From positions 1 through 64,000 of the forward strand of contig NZ_WMJX01000005.1 in assembly GCF_009711045.1 (NCBI RefSeq): a DNA stretch of 64,000 nt. Direction: 5' to 3'. This DNA is from Myroides albus. GTDB taxonomy: Bacteria; Bacteroidota; Bacteroidia; Flavobacteriales; Flavobacteriaceae. Of the stretch, positions 2,025 through 9,672 are shown in pieces (the first letter of the stretch is position 1; every line of letters begins with the position of its first letter). A model generated the notes under the pieces. That model saw only the letters and a program-made list of their open reading frames with translations, had not been told where the DNA came from and made no database searches. The translations under genes were made by a program, and so were the position numbers.

Positions 2025-2053
2025 AAAGGGAAGCTACTGAGCTTCCCTTTTTT
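2025..2053 (+). terminator. Rho-independent terminator after the acyl-CoA dehydrogenase
   Basis: An 11-bp stem (2025-2035 with 2040-2050), tetraloop ACTG and a T run form a classical terminator. The stop codon of the convergent symporter gene (2034-2036 on the minus strand) sits inside the hairpin. Confidence 0.85.
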
Positions 2054-3212
2054 GTTGTCGTTCGTGAAAGGCTGTTGCCATAAGGCTTAAAGCGCCATCC
2101 CCCACTATATTACACGCAGTGCCAAAACTGTCTTGTAGTGCGAATATGGTTAATACTAATGCTATCCCAGTATCATCGAAGCCTAGCATAGAGGTTATTA
2201 ATCCTAAAGATGCCATTAGCGCTCCGCCAGGTACACCAGGTGCTCCTAAGGCAAATATACCTAGTAAAAGCACAAAGAGAATCAATGTACTAATATCAGG
2301 TAAATGCCCATAAAGGACTAAGGATACGGTCATCACAAAGAAGGTCTCTGTAACCATAGCACCACATAAATGTACATTCGAGAAGAACGGAATAGTGAAG
2401 TTCGTAATCTCTGGCTTTAATACCTTGCTCTTATGTGCTGATTGCAGTGCTACACCTAAGCTAGCCGCTGAAGACATCGTCCCTAATGCTGTTAGATAGG
2501 TCGGTCCATAATGTCTGAGTACTTCCCATGGGTTCTTTTTAGCGTACAGACCTGCGATCGTGTATAAGATGGTGATCCATACGATATGAGCTAAAATCAC
2601 GATGATAATCACGATTAAGAAGATAGGTAATTGGGACTGTATGCTGCCTACATAACTAAGCAAAGCAAAATTACAGGCAATGTATAAGGGTAATAGGGGA
2701 ACTAGTACTCTATTGACTAAGAGTAACACGATCTCTCTAAAGTGATCGAAGGCTACTTCTAATGGTTTAGACTGTGTCCATAGAATACCTAAACCTATCA
2801 TGAGTGCAAGTACTAAGGAAGTCATCACATCGAATATAGGTGGAATGTCTAGTTTAAAGAGCATCTCTGGTAATGTTCTTCCCGTAGTAGCAGTAGAGGG
2901 TATGTCTAGCCAAGGTAATATAGTGTATCCTAATGAACCACTGAATAACCCTGCTCCGACACTCGATATATAAGCTATAGCTAAGGAAAACCCTATAATA
3001 ACAGAGGACTTCTGATCTAGCTTAGCAATAGACGATACGATAAATCCTAAGATAATTAAGGGGACTAAAAATAAGATGAGTTGCCCTAAAATATGTTTTG
3101 TAGATAAGATGACTTGAAGTAGAATATCATTTAGATAAGGCCCTACTAATAGACCGATGATTACTCCTGATAGTAGCCTAACGATAGTATTGTTTACTAA
3201 TTTCTTTAGCAT
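2034..3212 (-). CDS. Dicarboxylate/amino acid:cation symporter (DAACS family), copy A
   Basis: This is a 392-residue integral membrane protein with about eight transmembrane segments and two re-entrant hairpins, typical of sodium- or proton-coupled symporters for glutamate, aspartate or C4-dicarboxylates. The serine-rich hairpin is visible as LGTMSSAASLGVAL, and the C-terminal substrate-binding helix as ALQDSFGTACNIVGDGALSL, which matches the family D...NVTGD block. The usual NMDGT cation-site motif is replaced by NVHLCG, so substrate and coupling ion are uncertain. It lies 48 nt downstream of a close paralogue on the same strand; the pair looks like a tandem duplication. The C terminus is longer than in copy B and charged (HERQQKREAQ). 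Confidence 0.88.
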   Translation of the reverse strand: MLKKLVNNTIVRLLSGVIIGLLVGPYLNDILLQVILSTKHILGQLILFLVPLIILGFIVSSIAKLDQKSSVIIGFSLAIAYISSVGAGLFSGSLGYTILPWLDIPSTATTGRTLPEMLFKLDIPPIFDVMTSLVLALMIGLGILWTQSKPLEVAFDHFREIVLLLVNRVLVPLLPLYIACNFALLSYVGSIQSQLPIFLIVIIIVILAHIVWITILYTIAGLYAKKNPWEVLRHYGPTYLTALGTMSSAASLGVALQSAHKSKVLKPEITNFTIPFFSNVHLCGAMVTETFFVMTVSLVLYGHLPDISTLILFVLLLGIFALGAPGVPGGALMASLGLITSMLGFDDTGIALVLTIFALQDSFGTACNIVGDGALSLMATAFHERQQKREAQ

Positions 3213-3230
3213 AATATAGAGGTATAAAAA

Positions 3231-3252
3231 AGGGAAAGCACAGGCCTTCCCT
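3231..3252 (-). terminator. Hairpin between the two symporter genes
   Basis: AGGGAA (3231-3236) pairs with TTCCCT (3247-3252). On the minus strand the stem is followed by a run of six T, so it could end part of the transcript from the upstream copy before the downstream one. Confidence 0.5.
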
Positions 3253-3260
3253 CATTATCT

Positions 3261-4415
3261 TTATTTATCACTGTATTTTGTTACCATAAGGCTAAGTGCT
3301 CCATCTCCTGTAATATTACACGCGGTACCGAAGCTATCTTGTAATGCAAATATCGTTAAGGTCAGTGCGATACCAGCATCGTCAAAACCTAGTACTGAAG
3401 CAATGATACCTAATGAGGCCATTACAGTACCTCCTGGTACACCAGGTGCTCCGATAGCGAAGATACCTAATAGTAGTACGAATAAGATCATTGTCCCCAT
3501 AGTTGGCAATCCGCCATATAATACTTGAGATACGGTCATCACAAAGAATACTTCTGTCAATACTGATCCACATAAGTGTATATTAGAGAAGAACGGTATA
3601 GTGAAGTTCGTGATCTCAGGCTTCAGTACTTTACTCTTGTGTGCAGACTGTAGTGCTACACCAAGAGAAGCCGCTGAAGACATCGTACCTACTGCTGTTA
3701 GATAAGCAGGAGGATAATGTTTAATTACTTCCCATGGATTCTTCCCAGAGTATATTCCCGCTATCGTATACAACACACCTAACCAAATGAAGTGTGCTAC
3801 TATCACGATAAGTATCACAGTTAAGAACACAGGTAGCTGTGACTGTATAGACCCTTCATAGCTAAGTAATGCAAAGTTCGCCATGATATAGAATGGCAAT
3901 AGTGGGACTAATACTCTATTCACTAATAACAATACGATATCTTTAAACGAATCGAAGGCACGCTCTAATGGTTTAGATTCTGTCCATAGAATACCGATAC
4001 CGATCATTAAGGCAAGTGTCAGAGAAGTCATCACTCCGAATACAGGTGGAATGTCTAACTTAAAGAGCATTTCAGGTAATTCTTTCAGTGTCTCTACATT
4101 TTTCTCTATCTGTAAGTGAGGGATAATATTAAAACCTAATGTACTACTAAAGAATCCTGCTCCGATACTAGATAAGTAAGCAATAACAATAGAGAAACCG
4201 ATTATGCTAGTCTTTCCCTTATCCAGTTTAGCGATAGAGGATACAACAAATCCCAAGATGATAAGAGGAACTAAGAATAAGATTATCTGCCCCAAGATAT
4301 GTCTTGTAGATAGTGTTATCTGTAAAAGACTATCTGTAAGGTATGGACCAATTAATAACCCTGCTATTACGCCTAAAAGAAGTTTTACTATTGTATTACT
4401 AAAGAATTTCTTCAT
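3261..4415 (-). CDS. Dicarboxylate/amino acid:cation symporter (DAACS family), copy B
   Basis: This is a 384-residue paralogue of the next gene downstream, alike along its whole length (clearly more than half the residues identical), with identical stretches such as the LGTMSSAASLGVALQSAHKS segment. Predicted to be an inner-membrane symporter for organic acids or acidic amino acids. It also carries N-I-H-L-C-G where classical members have NMDGT, and retains ALQDSFGTACNITGDGALSL near the C terminus. The loop around residues 100-115 (HLQIEKNVETLKE) is where the copies differ most, which would suit altered gating or substrate range. It is the promoter-proximal gene of the pair. Confidence 0.88.
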   Translation of the reverse strand: MKKFFSNTIVKLLLGVIAGLLIGPYLTDSLLQITLSTRHILGQIILFLVPLIILGFVVSSIAKLDKGKTSIIGFSIVIAYLSSIGAGFFSSTLGFNIIPHLQIEKNVETLKELPEMLFKLDIPPVFGVMTSLTLALMIGIGILWTESKPLERAFDSFKDIVLLLVNRVLVPLLPFYIMANFALLSYEGSIQSQLPVFLTVILIVIVAHFIWLGVLYTIAGIYSGKNPWEVIKHYPPAYLTAVGTMSSAASLGVALQSAHKSKVLKPEITNFTIPFFSNIHLCGSVLTEVFFVMTVSQVLYGGLPTMGTMILFVLLLGIFAIGAPGVPGGTVMASLGIIASVLGFDDAGIALTLTIFALQDSFGTACNITGDGALSLMVTKYSDK

Positions 4416-4850
4416 GTTCTGACACCTATATTTTTGATTAAAGTACTAAATTATTCAAAGCAAAGATATTTATAAACCTTGTTTTTTATTAGTCATTTTC
4501 AGAATATACCATATATATGGTAGTGGAGGTGGCACGGTATAATATAGGATGTTCGTAATGATATGTTTTTCTGGATATAGTTTGGTTCGGAGACAGATTT
4601 AGTATCGTTCGCAAAAGGGGTCTTTATCCTACTAAATACCGAGGTTTTTCCGAACAGCTTCCGAACAAAGTGCTTAGTAAGGCGTAACAGATTTCTTATA
4701 AGCCTTGTCAATAAAGAGGTGATAAGGATTATCGTTTTTTTTATGGTTATAAGTTAGCAAGAATAAATAAGCATCTCAAGATGCCTAGCTATAGTTTATA
4801 CACATCACTAAAACTGAGAACCGTTAACCGAAAACTGTTAATTAATCTCC
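4416..4850. other. Non-coding interval upstream of the TonB receptor operator
   Basis: No convincing gene is present. A 70-codon minus-strand reading frame (4499-4711) is composition-driven. Two short repeats, AACCGTTAAC (4819) and AACTGTTAAT (4833), lie just before the operator-like block that starts at 4851. Confidence 0.5.
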
Positions 4851-4918
4851 GTTCGCGCAGTAAATACTCCCATTCACGCACTCATTTTTTCAGAAGTTGT
4901 GTTGTCAGATTACGTTTG
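4851..4918 (+). promoter_or_regulatory. Promoter with paired operator-like repeats (putative LytTR site)
   Basis: GTTCGCGCAG (4851-4860) and ATTCACGCAC (4872-4881) form a direct repeat with a 21-bp period, the spacing usual for LytTR-domain regulators. A perfect -7 element TACGTTTG follows at 4911-4918. No good TTG box lies at the right distance, only a T6 run, which fits an activator-dependent promoter. The downstream repeat is 39 nt from the -7 element, exactly as in the promoter at 7112. Transcription from here would begin near 4922, which places the receptor start at ATG 4942. Confidence 0.5.
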
Positions 4919-4941
4919 TGATAGAATTAATCAAGAAAAAG

Positions 4942-7074
4942 ATGAGAACACTACTATGTTTGTTATTAACCTTATGTGTAGGTGCTGTGCAGGCACAACA
5001 GATTCTGCTATCGGGTACAGTGGTAAACGATAAGAATAAACCAATCGAGAATGTGAATGTGTACCTTGAAGATAGCTTCGAGGGAGCATTGACTGATGCG
5101 AAAGGGTATTTCAGTTTTATAGTTACAGATACAGTAGTGAGTGGTGTGCTGAAGTTAATGCATGCACAGTATGGCAATCTCGATGTAGAAATCAATACAA
5201 AGGAGAATTATAATGAACATTTTGTGTTAAGTAGTCAAGATGAGGTGATGGGAGAAATCCTTATCATCGCGAATAGCAAGAATAAAAGAGAACGCGCAGA
5301 GAGTATTGGGTTAAATGCAATGGATGTAGTGAGTACTGCTGGGAGTCCCGGTAATATTATGGGAGTACTAAGTACCATGCCAGGGGCGCAGACGAATGGA
5401 GAGGATGGGAGACTACTGATACGTGGAGGTAGAGCAGAGGAGAGTGGTATATTCGTCAATGGTGTAAGAGTGTTTCAGCCTTATACTTCTTCTGTAGGTA
5501 ATGTACCTGTGCGCTCTAAGTTTAATCCGTTTCTGTTTAAGGGAATATCTTTCTCAGCAGGGGGGTATAGTGCAGAGTTTGGAGATGCGTTATCGGGAGT
5601 ATTACAGTTAGATACATCAGATGAGATAGATCCATCGCGTAGAGACTACTCTATCTCTACTGTAGGAGGGAGCTTCGCACAGACACATCAGTGGGGCAAG
5701 AACTCACTGTCGTATAGTCTAAACTATCTAAACTTAGGAGCCTATACTGCAGTGGTAAAGCAGCGATATAATACTAAAAAACCTTTCTCTACAGCTTCTG
5801 GGGAGATGATGTATAAGCGCGAGATTAAGGATGGTGGATATAAACTATATACTGCTGTGGACTTCTCTACCATCAAGTATGAGCAAGAGATACAGCCAAG
5901 TAATCGAGTAGATACACTAGGCTTTAAGTCGAGTAATGTGTATATGAATAGTGTGTTCTTTAAGAAGCTTACTCCTTATATGCGACTTGATATTGGTACA
6001 GGGTTAGGGTATATGGATTATACAGGAGATAGCAATGATCTGAGCTTAAAGAAGATTAGTTGGGATGTGAATCAGAAGGTGAAGTTTTCTTATCAGTGGA
6101 ATGGGCAGTTTCTGTCTTTTGTAGGGGTAGATGTACAGGCTTCTAAATTAGATTTGACGAGAAGTGAAGGGAGTAGAGCAGAAGCCTTTGGTACAGATAC
6201 TAATAGATGGGCACTGTTTTTTGAGAACAATTGGAAGATAACGTCAGACTTGTCATTGAGGGCAGGTTTGAGAACGAGTAAGTATTCAGAAATATCAGAT
6301 TGGACAGTAGAGCCACGTGCGATGTTGACTTATCAGGTGACACCTAAGCATCAGATGTCTTTTTCGTATGGGGTGTTTAATCAGGCTGTGAACTTAGAGC
6401 AGTCATTAGCAGTGAAACAAGAAGACTGGATGCAGGCTAACCATTATATACTGAACTATACTTATGAGTTTAGAAAGCGTCTATTGAGAGCAGAGATGTT
6501 CTATAAAGATTATAGTAAGTTGCTCTTAACGCCATTAGGTAAGCCAAGTGAGTATGCACAGTTAGGAGAGGGATATGCAAAGGGATTTGACTTGTTTTGG
6601 AAAGATAATATCACGTTTAAGAATTTTAGCTATTGGGTAACTTATACTTATATAGACTCTCAACGCAAAGAGATGTATTGGAACGAATGGATACAGCCGT
6701 CTTATGTAGTAAAGCACAACTTCTCTGTGGTGACGAAGTACTGGATAGATCAATGGAAATCTCAGGTGAGTATGACGTATAACTACAGTAGTCCACGTCA
6801 CTTCTACGATATGAATACTACTAATAAAACTACTTATGAGAGTAGTCCGATACACAATGTGAGTATGAGTTGGGCTTATCTATTCAGTGGGCAAAAGATA
6901 GTGTACTTATCAGTAGATAATTTGTTAGGTAGAAATCCTGTATACGCTTATCAGTTTAATCAACGTGGAGGACAACCAGATGTAACGAATGCCTCTGCGA
7001 AGCGATTTATATATGTAGGATTTATGTGGACGATAAGTGCAGATAAAAAGAAGAACCAATTGGAGAATTTGTAA
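4942..7074 (+). CDS. TonB-dependent outer membrane receptor with CarbopepD-like N-terminal domain
   Basis: About 710 residues from ATG 4942. A longer in-frame reading starts at 4897, but it would cross the predicted promoter, and the clean signal peptide MRTLLCLLLTLCVGAVQA begins at 4942. After the signal comes a carboxypeptidase-regulatory-like beta domain (LSGTVVNDKNKPIENVNVYLEDSFEG), then a plug domain (GSPGNIMGVLSTMPGAQTNGEDGRLLIRGG, FSAGGYSAEFGDALSGVLQLDT) and a 22-strand-type barrel. It lies in the outer membrane and imports a ligand using TonB energy. It is shorter than SusC proteins and has no SusD partner; its neighbours are a secreted helical protein and a LytS/LytTR pair, so the ligand cannot be named. 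The tail after the last strand (SADKKKNQLENL) is unusually long and polar. Confidence 0.88.
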   Translation: MRTLLCLLLTLCVGAVQAQQILLSGTVVNDKNKPIENVNVYLEDSFEGALTDAKGYFSFIVTDTVVSGVLKLMHAQYGNLDVEINTKENYNEHFVLSSQDEVMGEILIIANSKNKRERAESIGLNAMDVVSTAGSPGNIMGVLSTMPGAQTNGEDGRLLIRGGRAEESGIFVNGVRVFQPYTSSVGNVPVRSKFNPFLFKGISFSAGGYSAEFGDALSGVLQLDTSDEIDPSRRDYSISTVGGSFAQTHQWGKNSLSYSLNYLNLGAYTAVVKQRYNTKKPFSTASGEMMYKREIKDGGYKLYTAVDFSTIKYEQEIQPSNRVDTLGFKSSNVYMNSVFFKKLTPYMRLDIGTGLGYMDYTGDSNDLSLKKISWDVNQKVKFSYQWNGQFLSFVGVDVQASKLDLTRSEGSRAEAFGTDTNRWALFFENNWKITSDLSLRAGLRTSKYSEISDWTVEPRAMLTYQVTPKHQMSFSYGVFNQAVNLEQSLAVKQEDWMQANHYILNYTYEFRKRLLRAEMFYKDYSKLLLTPLGKPSEYAQLGEGYAKGFDLFWKDNITFKNFSYWVTYTYIDSQRKEMYWNEWIQPSYVVKHNFSVVTKYWIDQWKSQVSMTYNYSSPRHFYDMNTTNKTTYESSPIHNVSMSWAYLFSGQKIVYLSVDNLLGRNPVYAYQFNQRGGQPDVTNASAKRFIYVGFMWTISADKKKNQLENL

Positions 7075-7111
7075 AACAACAATACAAACAGTAGAGACAT
7101 TGGAAACAACA

Positions 7112-7158
7112 GTTCGCGCAGTTCGTTTTTTAAGGGTTTAATCGTCAGTGTAGATTTA
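7112..7158 (+). promoter_or_regulatory. Promoter sharing the operator block of the TonB receptor
   Basis: GTTCGCGCAG (7112-7121) is followed by a T-rich run, GTCAG at 7144 and the -7-like element TAGATTTA (7151-7158). Without gaps this aligns to the TonB receptor promoter (4872 onward) at about 30 of 49 positions, with the same 39-nt spacing from repeat to -7 element. The upstream partner repeat (7091-7100) is poor here. Confidence 0.45.
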
Positions 7159-7182
7159 TTGTGTAATTAAATAATTAGAAAG

Positions 7183-7803
7183 ATGAGAAAGTTATTAATT
7201 TTATTATTCGGTGTATTTAGTGTAGTGAGTTTCGGACAATCTAAATACGAAGCAGGAATGCAAAAAGCGATGCAACAATGGCAAAGTGGGCAATCGAAAG
7301 AGGCAGTGGCTATGTTAGACCGTATAGCGATGTCTGATAAAGAGAACTGGATACCGGTGTACTACAAGGTGCTTATTAGTATCACAGGAGGGTTTAGTAA
7401 TCCACAGGCTGATGCCGTAGAAGATATCGTGATGGCTAATCGCGTACTAATAGACCAATGGTTAGAAACAGGGGGAAGCGAGTGGTATGTACTGAAGGGA
7501 ATGAATGAGACACTAGAGTTGATTACAGATCCGATGAATAAGGGGATGGTGCAGACTCCAATTATCAATAAAGCGTATGATAAGGCGATAGAGTTAGACC
7601 CTACTAATCCGAGAGCAGTGTATTCTGTGGCAAGTTTTCAGATTAATAGTGCTAAGTTTATGAAAGTAGATATGGATTATTACTGTAAGATGCTAGAGAA
7701 GTCGATAGAGCTATTCGATAAACAGGAGAGTGATGTGCCATTCTATCCATCATGGGGAAAAGATTGGGCATTAAAAACACAAGAAATGTGTAAAGTGAAG
7801 TAA
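7183..7803 (+). CDS. Secreted protein with TPR-like helical repeats
   Basis: This is a 206-residue protein starting with a signal peptide (MRKLLILLFGVFSVVSFGQ), so it is exported to the periplasm or outer-membrane periplasmic face. The mature part is helical, with pairs such as YEAGMQKAMQQWQSGQSKEAVAMLDRIA and NKAYDKAIELDPTNPRAVYSVASFQI that read as tetratricopeptide-like units. No catalytic motif is visible. It lies between the TonB receptor and a two-component system, has its own operator-type promoter, and is 28 nt upstream of the kinase gene, so it may be part of the sensing or uptake unit. I do not recognise a named family. Confidence 0.8.
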   Translation: MRKLLILLFGVFSVVSFGQSKYEAGMQKAMQQWQSGQSKEAVAMLDRIAMSDKENWIPVYYKVLISITGGFSNPQADAVEDIVMANRVLIDQWLETGGSEWYVLKGMNETLELITDPMNKGMVQTPIINKAYDKAIELDPTNPRAVYSVASFQINSAKFMKVDMDYYCKMLEKSIELFDKQESDVPFYPSWGKDWALKTQEMCKVK

Positions 7804-7831: not shown

Positions 7832-8929
7832 ATGAAAAAAGTAGAAATGAATGTTAATTGGCGTAGACATATTGTATTGGCCTGTAGTATATCGGTACTG
7901 ATCAGTTTGGTTATTTCGTATTTTACTTTTCGTAATAGCGAGTTAAGCTTGGGTGAGCTATTGATAAATTATCGTTTTTTGAAAAATACGTTTTTGTCTT
8001 TTGTATTGTCGATGTTGATTTACGCAGCTAATGTATTAACGAGTGCATGGGTGTGTAGGGTAATGGATAAACGAGATGCTAAAAATGAAATAGCTATGAG
8101 TAAGATTACTCGTAACGCTGTTTTTTTTGTCAATGGCATTTTGACATCTATAGTTTCTTATTACTTATTCTTGGCGCTAATTTTGAATTTATTTTATAGC
8201 TTGTCTTTTAAAGCTTTCTTTCTTGGGCAACATTTAAGTTTTGGCAATTTTTTAGGAGCATTGTTATTAAGTACTTTTATTTTGCTTATTGTGTTTACGT
8301 TTGCCTATCACGATGAACTTAGGTTGTTAGAATTAAAGAATAGAGAGATGGAGATAGAGCTACAAAAAAGTCAAATAGAAGGGATGAAAGAACAACTGTC
8401 TCCCCATTTCTTGTTTAACAATATGAATGTACTCATCAGTACAATCCAAGAAGATCCAGTAAAGGCAGAACAGTTTGCCCGTTCGTTCTCTAAGATATAT
8501 AGATATGTATTAGAGAAGTTAGATTATCCCTTGTGTAACTTATCTGACGAAGTATCTTTTATAAGAGATTATGTCTATCTACTCAATGTGAGATATGATA
8601 ATGCAATAGCATTTAGCATTAGTGAAGAGGTGATGAAGTATGATGATGTAGAAGTGCCTACCTTGAGTTTGCAACTATTGATTGAAAATGTAGTAAAGCA
8701 CAATGTAATTCCTTCGGAGGGAAGTATTAGAGTAGAATTGCGTATAGAAGAAGGAGGGTTAGTACTGTGGAATGAAAAATATGCTAAGCCCAAAGAAGTG
8801 TATTCATCTGGACTGGGATTACAGAATTTGTCTAAGCGCAATAAGTTAATGGTGAAGCAAGATATTGAGATAAGTGATTTGGAAGATAGTTTTAGTGTTA
8901 GAATTCCTTTAGTTAGAATAGAGAGTTGA
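7832..8929 (+). CDS. Sensor histidine kinase, LytS/YehU type
   Basis: This 365-residue inner-membrane kinase has four predicted transmembrane helices in residues 10-170 and essentially no periplasmic domain, followed by a coiled stretch (LELKNREMEIELQKSQIEGMKEQ). The His_kinase signature LSPHFLFNNMN carries the phospho-accepting histidine at about residue 191. The ATPase domain shows the N box (LLIENVVKHN) and a glycine box (SSGLGLQNLSKRNKL). Its stop codon overlaps the ATG of the response regulator (TGATG), so the pair is translationally coupled. The signal is unknown; such kinases often sense membrane or envelope states. Confidence 0.93.
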   Translation: MKKVEMNVNWRRHIVLACSISVLISLVISYFTFRNSELSLGELLINYRFLKNTFLSFVLSMLIYAANVLTSAWVCRVMDKRDAKNEIAMSKITRNAVFFVNGILTSIVSYYLFLALILNLFYSLSFKAFFLGQHLSFGNFLGALLLSTFILLIVFTFAYHDELRLLELKNREMEIELQKSQIEGMKEQLSPHFLFNNMNVLISTIQEDPVKAEQFARSFSKIYRYVLEKLDYPLCNLSDEVSFIRDYVYLLNVRYDNAIAFSISEEVMKYDDVEVPTLSLQLLIENVVKHNVIPSEGSIRVELRIEEGGLVLWNEKYAKPKEVYSSGLGLQNLSKRNKLMVKQDIEISDLEDSFSVRIPLVRIES

Positions 8930-9672
8930 TGAAAATAGTAATTATAGAAGATGAGAAACCTGCAGCGAGACTGCTGACAAGAGAGCTGGAGAAGTTAGGA
9001 TTCGAGGTACAGCAGATATTGTATTCTGTAGGAGAGGCTATACTTTGGTTGATGCAACATGAGCATCCAGATTTGATATTTGCTGATATACAGTTAGCAG
9101 ATGGATTATCTTTAGAGATATTCGAGCAAGTAGAGGTTAAGAGCGCTATTATCTTTGTCACAAGTTTTGATCATTATGCGATTAAGGCATTTAAGCTAAA
9201 TAGCATTGATTATTTATTAAAACCGATAGAGCCAATAGAGTTGTTGGGTGCTATTAATAAATACAAGGCACAACAACGCAGTACAACACAGACGGTAGAG
9301 AGCCTCAGACACAGTATAGGGGGGAGTAACTATGCAAAACGGCTGATGATAAAAGTGGGAATGCAGATAAAGATGGTGTTGGTGGATGAGGTAGTATGTT
9401 TTTATAGAGAGGATAGAGGAGTATATATTTCGACAGTGGAAGGTAAGACTCATCTGTTAGATGAGGAGTCTCTAGAGGCTGTTATTAAAACGGTTAGTCC
9501 GAAGAAGTTCTTTCGGGTGAATAGATCTCAAGTAGTGAGCATCGATTATATAGAACAGATTATACAATTATCTACTTCTCGGTTAAAACTAACGATGAAG
9601 AATTATACAGCTGAGGTGATTGTGAGTAGAGAAAGAGTGGGTGAATTTAAGAGCTGGTTAGCGGAGAATTAG
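8929..9672 (+). CDS. LytTR-family response regulator
   Basis: 247 residues from ATG 8929; the TTG three bases earlier is unlikely because the stop/start overlap TGATG is typical. The receiver domain (1-120) has acidic residues IEDE near the N terminus, phospho-acceptor D53 in FADIQLADG, and the conserved lysine in DYLLKPIEP. The LytTR DNA-binding domain occupies about 145-245 (VDEVVCFYREDRGVYISTVEGKTHLLDEESLEAV, KKFFRVNRSQVVSIDYIEQI). LytTR proteins bind pairs of roughly 10-bp direct repeats 21-22 bp apart. Repeats of that kind lie ahead of the TonB receptor, and a related site precedes the TPR-like gene, so these are its likely targets. Confidence 0.94.
   Translation: MKIVIIEDEKPAARLLTRELEKLGFEVQQILYSVGEAILWLMQHEHPDLIFADIQLADGLSLEIFEQVEVKSAIIFVTSFDHYAIKAFKLNSIDYLLKPIEPIELLGAINKYKAQQRSTTQTVESLRHSIGGSNYAKRLMIKVGMQIKMVLVDEVVCFYREDRGVYISTVEGKTHLLDEESLEAVIKTVSPKKFFRVNRSQVVSIDYIEQIIQLSTSRLKLTMKNYTAEVIVSRERVGEFKSWLAEN

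Follow-up and report, generated by a model that had tools for sequence, protein, structure and literature searches.

We analysed a 64,000-nucleotide stretch of the Myroides albus genome (contig NZ_WMJX01000005.1, positions 1 to 64,000; hereafter the window) and focused on four consecutive plus-strand genes, together with two copies of a putative operator-promoter unit that precede the first two of them. The first gene (tonB; 4942..7074) encodes a TonB-dependent receptor that contains the Pfam domains PF13715 (CarboxypepD_reg-like), PF07715 (plug) and PF00593 (barrel) and is HusB-like in its position. The second (the husA-like gene; 7183..7803) encodes a secreted TPR-like protein assigned to the HusA (haemophore) family by hmmsearch to PG_2227/HusA and by Foldseek. 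It is followed, after a gap of 28 bp, by a membrane histidine kinase gene (7832..8929; His_kinase, PF06580) and by a response regulator gene (8929..9672) whose start overlaps the kinase stop and whose product combines a receiver domain (PF00072) with a LytTR DNA-binding domain (PF04397). The kinase probably lies in the same transcript as the husA-like gene, and the 28-bp gap together with the overlapping frames suggests that the regulator gene is transcribed along with both, so that all three would be autoregulated. An earlier interpretation of the DNA letters (the sequence-only reading) had described the last two genes as a LytS/LytTR pair. In the Pfam scan the kinase and the adjoining receiver-LytTR regulator do have the architecture of a two-component pair; however, the kinase of a LytS/LytTR pair is expected to carry a LytS-type membrane sensor domain, and this domain was not found, as the scan gave PF06580 only (E up to 0.001). 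The same four genes were present in the same order in all five loci of the closest regulator relatives (82-88%), namely M. odoratimimus, M. marinus, M. pelagicus, Myroides sp. N17-2 and a metagenome-assembled genome of Flavobacteriaceae.

Both operator-promoter units lie on the plus strand. Upstream of tonB, conserved columns delimit a first half-site (TCCGTTCGC, 4848..4856; extended form CCGTTCGCGCA, 4849-4859), followed 21 bp later by a second one (CCCATTCAC, 4869..4877; extended form, read from the sequence, CCATTCACGCA, 4870-4880), and the first base of a -7 box (TACGTTTG, 4911..4918) stands 42 nt after the start of half-site 2. Upstream of the husA-like gene, half-site 2 (ACAGTTCGC, 7109..7117) was identified from the sequence and from relatives; a -7-like box (TAGATTTA, 7151..7158) starts 42 nt after it, and a degenerate half-site 1 (ACAGTAGAG, 7088..7096), overlooked in the sequence-only reading, lies 21 bp upstream. 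This upstream partner is better kept in relatives (ACGGTTGGC, ACAACTTAA, ACGGTTGAG). The -7 box of Flavobacterium psychrophilum occupies positions -12 to -5 (PMC9723704), and by this position the tonB half-sites would lie near -75 and -54 (about -75 to -67 and -54 to -46), with starts near 4923 for tonB and near 7163 for the husA-like gene.

The sequence-only reading had started from 10-mers, which are all present: GTTCGCGCAG at 4851-4860 and 7112-7121, and ATTCACGCAC at 4872-4881, with a period of 21 between 4851 and 4872. Its distance of 39 nt to the -7 element is correct for the copies at 4872 and 7112, whereas the copy at 4851 lies 60 nt away. In the register of the 9-mer half-sites, both promoters have the -7 octamer 42 nt on and TTTG or TTTA 46 nt on. 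Positions 4872-4920 and 7112-7160 align without gaps at 29 of 49 positions (about 30 had been claimed), while random window pairs had a mean of 13.3 identities (standard deviation 3.2), and 29 was not reached by any of the roughly 200,000 drawn. Five exact copies of the 10-mer exist in the 3.55-Mb genome; two are those of the window promoters and the other three fall inside open reading frames (ORFs).

The secreted protein was present in 296 of the 398 genomes drawn from the GTDB genus of the window. We fetched 40 loci from its matches, and a tonB match was found in 36 of them (L121, L124, L125 and L145 had none); the loci come from match lists that favour high scores and good assemblies and are not a random sample. 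Flavobacterium-type here denotes L043 and those genomes of the same genus that fall outside the Myroides group. Before tonB, the window and five close Myroides loci share two C[CA][AG]TTC repeats of period 21 and a TAnGTTTG box, and Flavobacterium-type promoters carry pairs resembling ACARYTCAT-n12-ACARYTSRG. Two 9-bp half-sites with 12 bp between them (period 21) correspond to the tandem direct repeat of LytTR operators, whose generic half-site consensus is [TA][AC][CA]GTTN[AG][TG]. With the core relaxed to [GA][TC]T, the fit was 14-16 of 16 for Flavobacterium-type pairs, 13-15 for most Myroides-group pairs, 13 for the window tonB pair and 12 for L035 and L111. Generic half-site pairs at period 21 had a mean of 13.39 in the Flavobacterium-type set (other periods 11.57-12.39; shuffles 11.99) and of 13.43 in the other loci (other periods 11.71-12.86; shuffles 11.86). 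Since the generic consensus is weak in Myroides, we added a distance test and a held-out test.

For the distance test, we counted half-site pairs that scored at least 13 of 16 and scanned distances of 34 to 59 after half-site 2 for TTTG. L113 and L115, which lie on the same contigs as L033 and L034, were left out of this and all later tests and kept in the comparison of tonB promoter pairs, the period test, the tree and the analysis behind the second-operator counts; L120 was placed with the Myroides group here and with the Flavobacterium-type set in the period test, and L046, L102 and L001 had no usable tonB upstream. TTTG stood exactly at +46 from half-site 2 in 44 of 48 orthologous tonB upstreams (27/27 Flavobacterium-type, 12/14 Myroides-group and 5/7 others), and any other distance was reached by at most 2 per group. 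The two Myroides-group misses, L035 and L111, have a repeat that is seen by eye and scores 12 by hand. Holding TTTG at +46, we obtained 27, 12 and 5 matches at period 21 in the Flavobacterium-type set, the Myroides group and the others, respectively, and at other periods a maximum of 6 in the Myroides group and 1 in the others. Conservation in orthologous loci, by which the sequence-only reading had proposed to judge its own claim, thus speaks in its favour.

The held-out set comprised 40 loci from outside the GTDB genus of the window, fetched after the rule had been fixed and chosen with the same preference for high scores and good assemblies; 35 of these had a tonB start, and L240, L255 and L261-L263, where it was absent, are outside the count. 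The operator was found at +46 in 13 of the 35 tonB upstreams, with at most 3 at other distances, and period 21 gave 13 matches, with at most 7 for any other period. Relaxing TTTG to TTT raised the count at +46 to 16 of 35, but 11 also appeared at +45, so that this form is less specific. In 11 held-out loci (L230, L233, L236, L242, L243, L245, L247 and L251-L254) a different, inverted-repeat block lies over the tonB promoter; it is GGTTTATATTATAAAC-like (TTTGGTTTATATTATAAACTAnTTTACrTTTG-like) and replaces the tandem, as if another regulator had taken over the promoter. A kinase beside the husA-like gene was found in 0 of the 7 genomes with this block whose downstream side was read, and the operator-positive G502, G531 and G446 are likewise without one.

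The second operator, between tonB and the husA-like gene, was present in 28 of 31 Flavobacterium-type loci. In the Myroides group, 9 of 14 loci, the window among them, have a 21-bp pair ahead of the husA-like gene at a distance of 42 nt from a TAnnTTT[AG] box. Among 49 further loci (L177-L225, in which L181 is the previously counted locus L142), 30 had, before this gene, a pair that scored at least 14 and was followed by TTTG at +46; all 30 belong to the first 32 loci (the misses being L190 and L199), and the last and most distant 17 contributed none. In Myroides sp. N17-2 (L033/L113) the husA-like gene has one in-frame stop and the operator upstream of it is absent, a possible sign that this strain is losing the secreted partner.

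We then related the operator to the regulator, taking as operator-positive the 16 of 35 held-out tonB upstreams with TTT at +46. A regulator counted as an orthologue if its gene lay no more than 10 kb from the husA-like gene or if it shared at least 55% identity with the L150 regulator (G717 is outside this survey). An orthologue was present in 14 of 16 operator-positive genomes and in 1 of 18 operator-negative ones (Fisher 1.2e-6). Nine of the 14 are linked to the locus, two lie more than 2 Mb away in single-contig genomes (G446 and G531), and the remaining three (G502, G719 and G711) are on other contigs. Exceptions were G535, with a weak site and no regulator at E up to 1e-30; G738, whose regulator is 49% identical and 45 kb away; and G853, which has a linked regulator and a tandem visible by eye with a box ending in TTTCG. 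Many operator-negative genomes have LytTR regulators of up to 46% identity.

A genome-wide search in 10 genomes for the Myroides-type tandem with at most 3 mismatches returned 20 matches, and the reversed control none: one at tonB in each genome, one at the husA promoter of G080 and nine elsewhere. In the genome of the window (G000) the window site was the only match. The Flavobacterium-type tandem, with at most one mismatch in 10 genomes, gave 33 matches against 4 in the control; 18 of these are both module promoters of all nine Flavobacterium-type genomes, four precede the gene for a 351-amino-acid protein, one lies on contig C62 of G000 and 10 are elsewhere, the extra match in G404 falling inside an ORF. 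The copies before the 351-amino-acid protein gene (L157, L158, L159 and L160, in G131, G345, G079 and G388) are a third operator copy in these genomes. The protein has an N-terminal membrane segment and the motif LLGEIHG, with no Pfam family above the cut-off, and is a candidate extra regulon member.

The single Flavobacterium-type operator of G000 (C62:26537-26566) lies upstream of an ORF of 59 amino acids, a kinase with a 2TM-like tail and a regulator 50-51% identical to that of the window. This sister LytTR system (L151:3038-5787, which also includes a 119-amino-acid membrane protein) has no tonB or husA alongside, its operator stands ahead of its own kinase operon, and its neighbours match those of the Flavobacterium-type locus L150. 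In 12 Myroides-group and related genomes the C62 operator pattern gave 23 matches against 9 in the control; all six without mismatch, and two with one mismatch, precede the same kinase (L162, L166-L172), and four other fetched matches (L163-L165, L173) do not. No match was found at that kinase in G080 and none at all in G018, and G098 and G290 have one further similar site each. The two systems carry different operators: the sister has kept the ancestral form seen across the genus, ACARYTCRT-n12-ACARYTSRG, and that of the window has diverged to CCRTTCRCGCA-n10-CCRTTCRCGCA.

The tree of regulators placed all 16 Myroides module rows, of which two are duplicates, in one group (support 100/99) that joins C62 and L020 with support of 94/75, under our mark for strong support. 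Eight Myroides module regulators share one residue at each of 26 alignment columns where C62 and nine Flavobacterium-type regulators differ from them. Among these columns are LytTR-domain positions 160, 162, 163, 201 and 216, and position 200 is S, Y or H instead of K; the changes near DNA contacts are S160R, N162D, K163R, K200 to S/Y/H, F201Q and N216T. In AgrA, R198, N201 and S202 contact DNA (PMC4227749), and by our reading they align with R196, R199 and S200 of the window regulator. The chances seem about even that the two Myroides LytTR systems are an ancestor's copies with split DNA codes, their specificity rewired after duplication in a way that would insulate parallel pathways. Simple co-evolution of regulator and operator is not clean, given that L120 (G215) has changed positions 160, 162, 163, 201 and 216 and an operator without GCGCA.

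On the side of the uptake genes, a profile of 13 secreted proteins matched Porphyromonas gingivalis PG_2227 (HusA; 6BQS/6CRL) in hmmsearch with E 4.7e-31. The AlphaFold2 model of the window protein has a mean pLDDT of 88.1, and Foldseek with this model ranked HusA first (TM 0.77, E 3e-6; next match 3e-3). By profile and predicted structure, the secreted protein is a member of the family of HusA, described as a P. gingivalis haemophore (PMC6173696). No Pfam family was above the cut-off for it, and a TPR label (E 0.0004, below the cut-off) was set aside after the PDB profile search gave HusA instead. For the TonB receptor no PDB match was obtained at E up to 0.01. Expression of the P. gingivalis hus operon, which includes the gene for the TonB receptor HusB (UniProt Q7MSY4), is dependent on iron and haem (PMC10100897).

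We propose, with a probability of roughly 80%, that the histidine kinase and the LytTR regulator activate this Hus-like uptake operon, and themselves, from the two copies of one operator-promoter unit (4848-4918 and 7088-7158). The adjacent kinase would phosphorylate the response regulator (8929-9672), and a dimer of the phosphorylated regulator would bind the two half-sites, spaced by 21 bp and located around -75 and -54, and aid RNA polymerase where the -7 box is good (TAnnTTTG) and the -33 box is poor. Levels of the receptor and of its HusA-family neighbour would rise together, and the system would raise itself, with kinase and regulator closely behind the husA-like gene. As a HusB/HusA-like pair, the secreted protein would catch a porphyrin or related ligand and hand it to the receptor. 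From the DNA and its relatives we infer binding, activation rather than repression, the phosphorelay, co-transcription and the porphyrin ligand. The sequence-only reading had likewise seen a shared operator-promoter block and an uptake module, and both ideas gain support here, with operator presence tracking the regulator lineage.

Several observations weigh against the proposal. In the Flavobacterium-type set, other periods with TTTG fixed reached 17 of 27 (period 13), and with the generic consensus period 21 was not singled out in the Myroides set (12.8, versus 12.93 at period 12). The strict operator was absent from 22 of 35 held-out tonB upstreams, and the husA operator from 5 of 14 Myroides-group loci (L033, L116-L119), 3 of 31 Flavobacterium-type loci (L121, L125, L145) and 19 of the 49 further loci. 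The orthologue rule was set after the data had been seen, and loci and genomes are related, so that the counts do not represent independent events. Finally, V124, W130 and Y164 of the HusA groove (HusA residues as given in PMC6173696) are replaced in the window protein.

This last point bears on the ligand, and it is quite conceivable, if somewhat less probable than the converse, that the HusA fold was retained while the ligand changed to something other than a porphyrin. The HusA paper also limits close homologues to Porphyromonas. Groove positions F80, L122, L123 and P126, on the other hand, are kept or still hydrophobic (in the 13 rows, window F71 is nearly invariant and P117 invariant; the comparison covered these four positions and V124, W130 and Y164), and a TonB receptor is adjacent, as in hus. 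With the groove residues partly kept, a porphyrin is plausible as ligand.

It is unlikely that the regulator instead represses from the operator until relieved by a signal. The sign of regulation is not readable from sequence, and AgrA, a LytTR protein, represses one promoter from a downstream site; the present site, at about -75 to -46, is nevertheless comparable to those of the activated agr promoters, whose proximal repeats are centred near -60 (PMC4227749). Moreover, no TTG lies 18-23 nt before either window -7 box, where the sequence-only reading had seen no good TTG box, and of the tonB promoters no more than 6 of 13 in the Myroides group and 4 of 27 of Flavobacterium-type have TTG at the -33 distance. 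The poor -33 box and the site position together favour activation.

Still less likely is a reading of the operator by another factor, either a LytTR paralogue or a non-LytTR regulator, with the adjacent pair as a bystander. The genome of the window has 6 LytTR matches, the window half-sites deviate from the classical consensus, and some held-out genomes have their closest regulator away from the operator. Yet the operator tracks the regulator lineage, including the two genomes with the regulator more than 2 Mb off, the C62 paralogue carries the ancestral operator at its own operon, and 11 held-out loci that lack the tandem carry the inverted-repeat block, with no kinase beside the husA-like gene in those read. 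A chance likeness of two AT-rich promoters is very improbable and was rejected on the exact-10-mer genome count, the 29/49 identity and the fixed-distance conservation across genera, held-out loci included, even though one husA-operator half-site is weak and the window-only count of the 10-mer with at most one mismatch (4 matches) is not extreme, being equalled in 3 of 100 shuffles.

Activation by the LytTR pair places the module next to several known systems. At the AgrA operators of Staphylococcus agr P2/P3, too, a LytTR dimer binds two direct repeats just upstream of the promoter (PMC4227749); here the promoter is of the Bacteroidota -7 type, half-site 2 would be centred near -50, the Myroides half-site is CCRTTCRCGCA and the targets are an uptake pair. 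Tandem LytTR repeats with a 21-bp period are already known, as the sequence-only reading had said, and its undescribed operator is new in half-site, regulon and conservation, not in architecture. The LytTR Regulatory Systems (LRS) of Bacteroides thetaiotaomicron and B. ovatus also have tandem repeats upstream of TATCTTTG promoters, and autoregulation has been proposed for them, but their repeats are 11 bp long with 11-bp spacing and another sequence (PMC6193735). In LRS the partner of the LytTR regulator is an inhibitory membrane protein, whereas here a kinase and a receiver-LytTR regulator are joined to an uptake regulon. LytTR regulators of LRS are not known to have a receiver domain; by Pfam, the regulator of this locus has one and its partner is a kinase.

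The P. gingivalis Hus system (HusA PG_2227, HusB) likewise has a HusA-family secreted protein beside a TonB-dependent receptor (PMC10100897); here the ligand groove is partly conserved, the receptor is HusB-like by position, and a LytTR kinase pair and a shared operator are attached. Flavobacterium-type loci with a histidine kinase (HK) and a LytTR regulator, which we call HK-2TM/LytTR loci (e.g. L136), contain, in this order where mapped in detail, tonB, often DUF2141, a husA-like gene, a kinase with a 2TM tail, small 2TM proteins and the regulator, while the Myroides module is without DUF2141 and the 2TM proteins. In the open-licence PubMed Central literature, partly surveyed, we found no description of HK-2TM/LytTR loci and no report of this operator or of a LytTR regulator of Hus-like genes, and only the Bacteroides LRS repeats were described as LytTR operators in this group.

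Two published pairs were considered as counterparts and set aside. In F. johnsoniae, a LytTR regulator and the adjacent kinase (FJOH_RS09515/RS09520) were mutated in 5/5 lines coevolved with B. thailandensis (the regulator in two, the kinase in three), and the authors called the contribution of the LytTR mutations unknown (PMC10197871). Two candidate LytTR loci of G158 (L174 and L175), chosen by estimated position, had no tonB or husA match and only 25-34% local identity to our regulators, and the F. johnsoniae pair is probably another system. RS09735/RS09740 of R. anatipestifer is described as a PhoR/OmpR-type pair.

This group is rich in LytTR domains (23 matches in the same-genus genome G158). 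In the proposed module, conservation defines the half-sites, the spacing and the promoter geometry of the operator; with a regulator named and a small regulon predicted, binding and activation become directly testable. The module would also tie the HusA family, known from work on an oral pathogen that requires haem, to a regulator in other Bacteroidota. As one genome holds both diverged operators, the LytTR base-reading code is testable by swapping few residues. On the other side of tonB, the minus strand of the window (2034-4415) holds two tandem dicarboxylate symporter genes (PF00375), divergent from tonB, and one or two copies are kept at the same place in five close Myroides-type loci.

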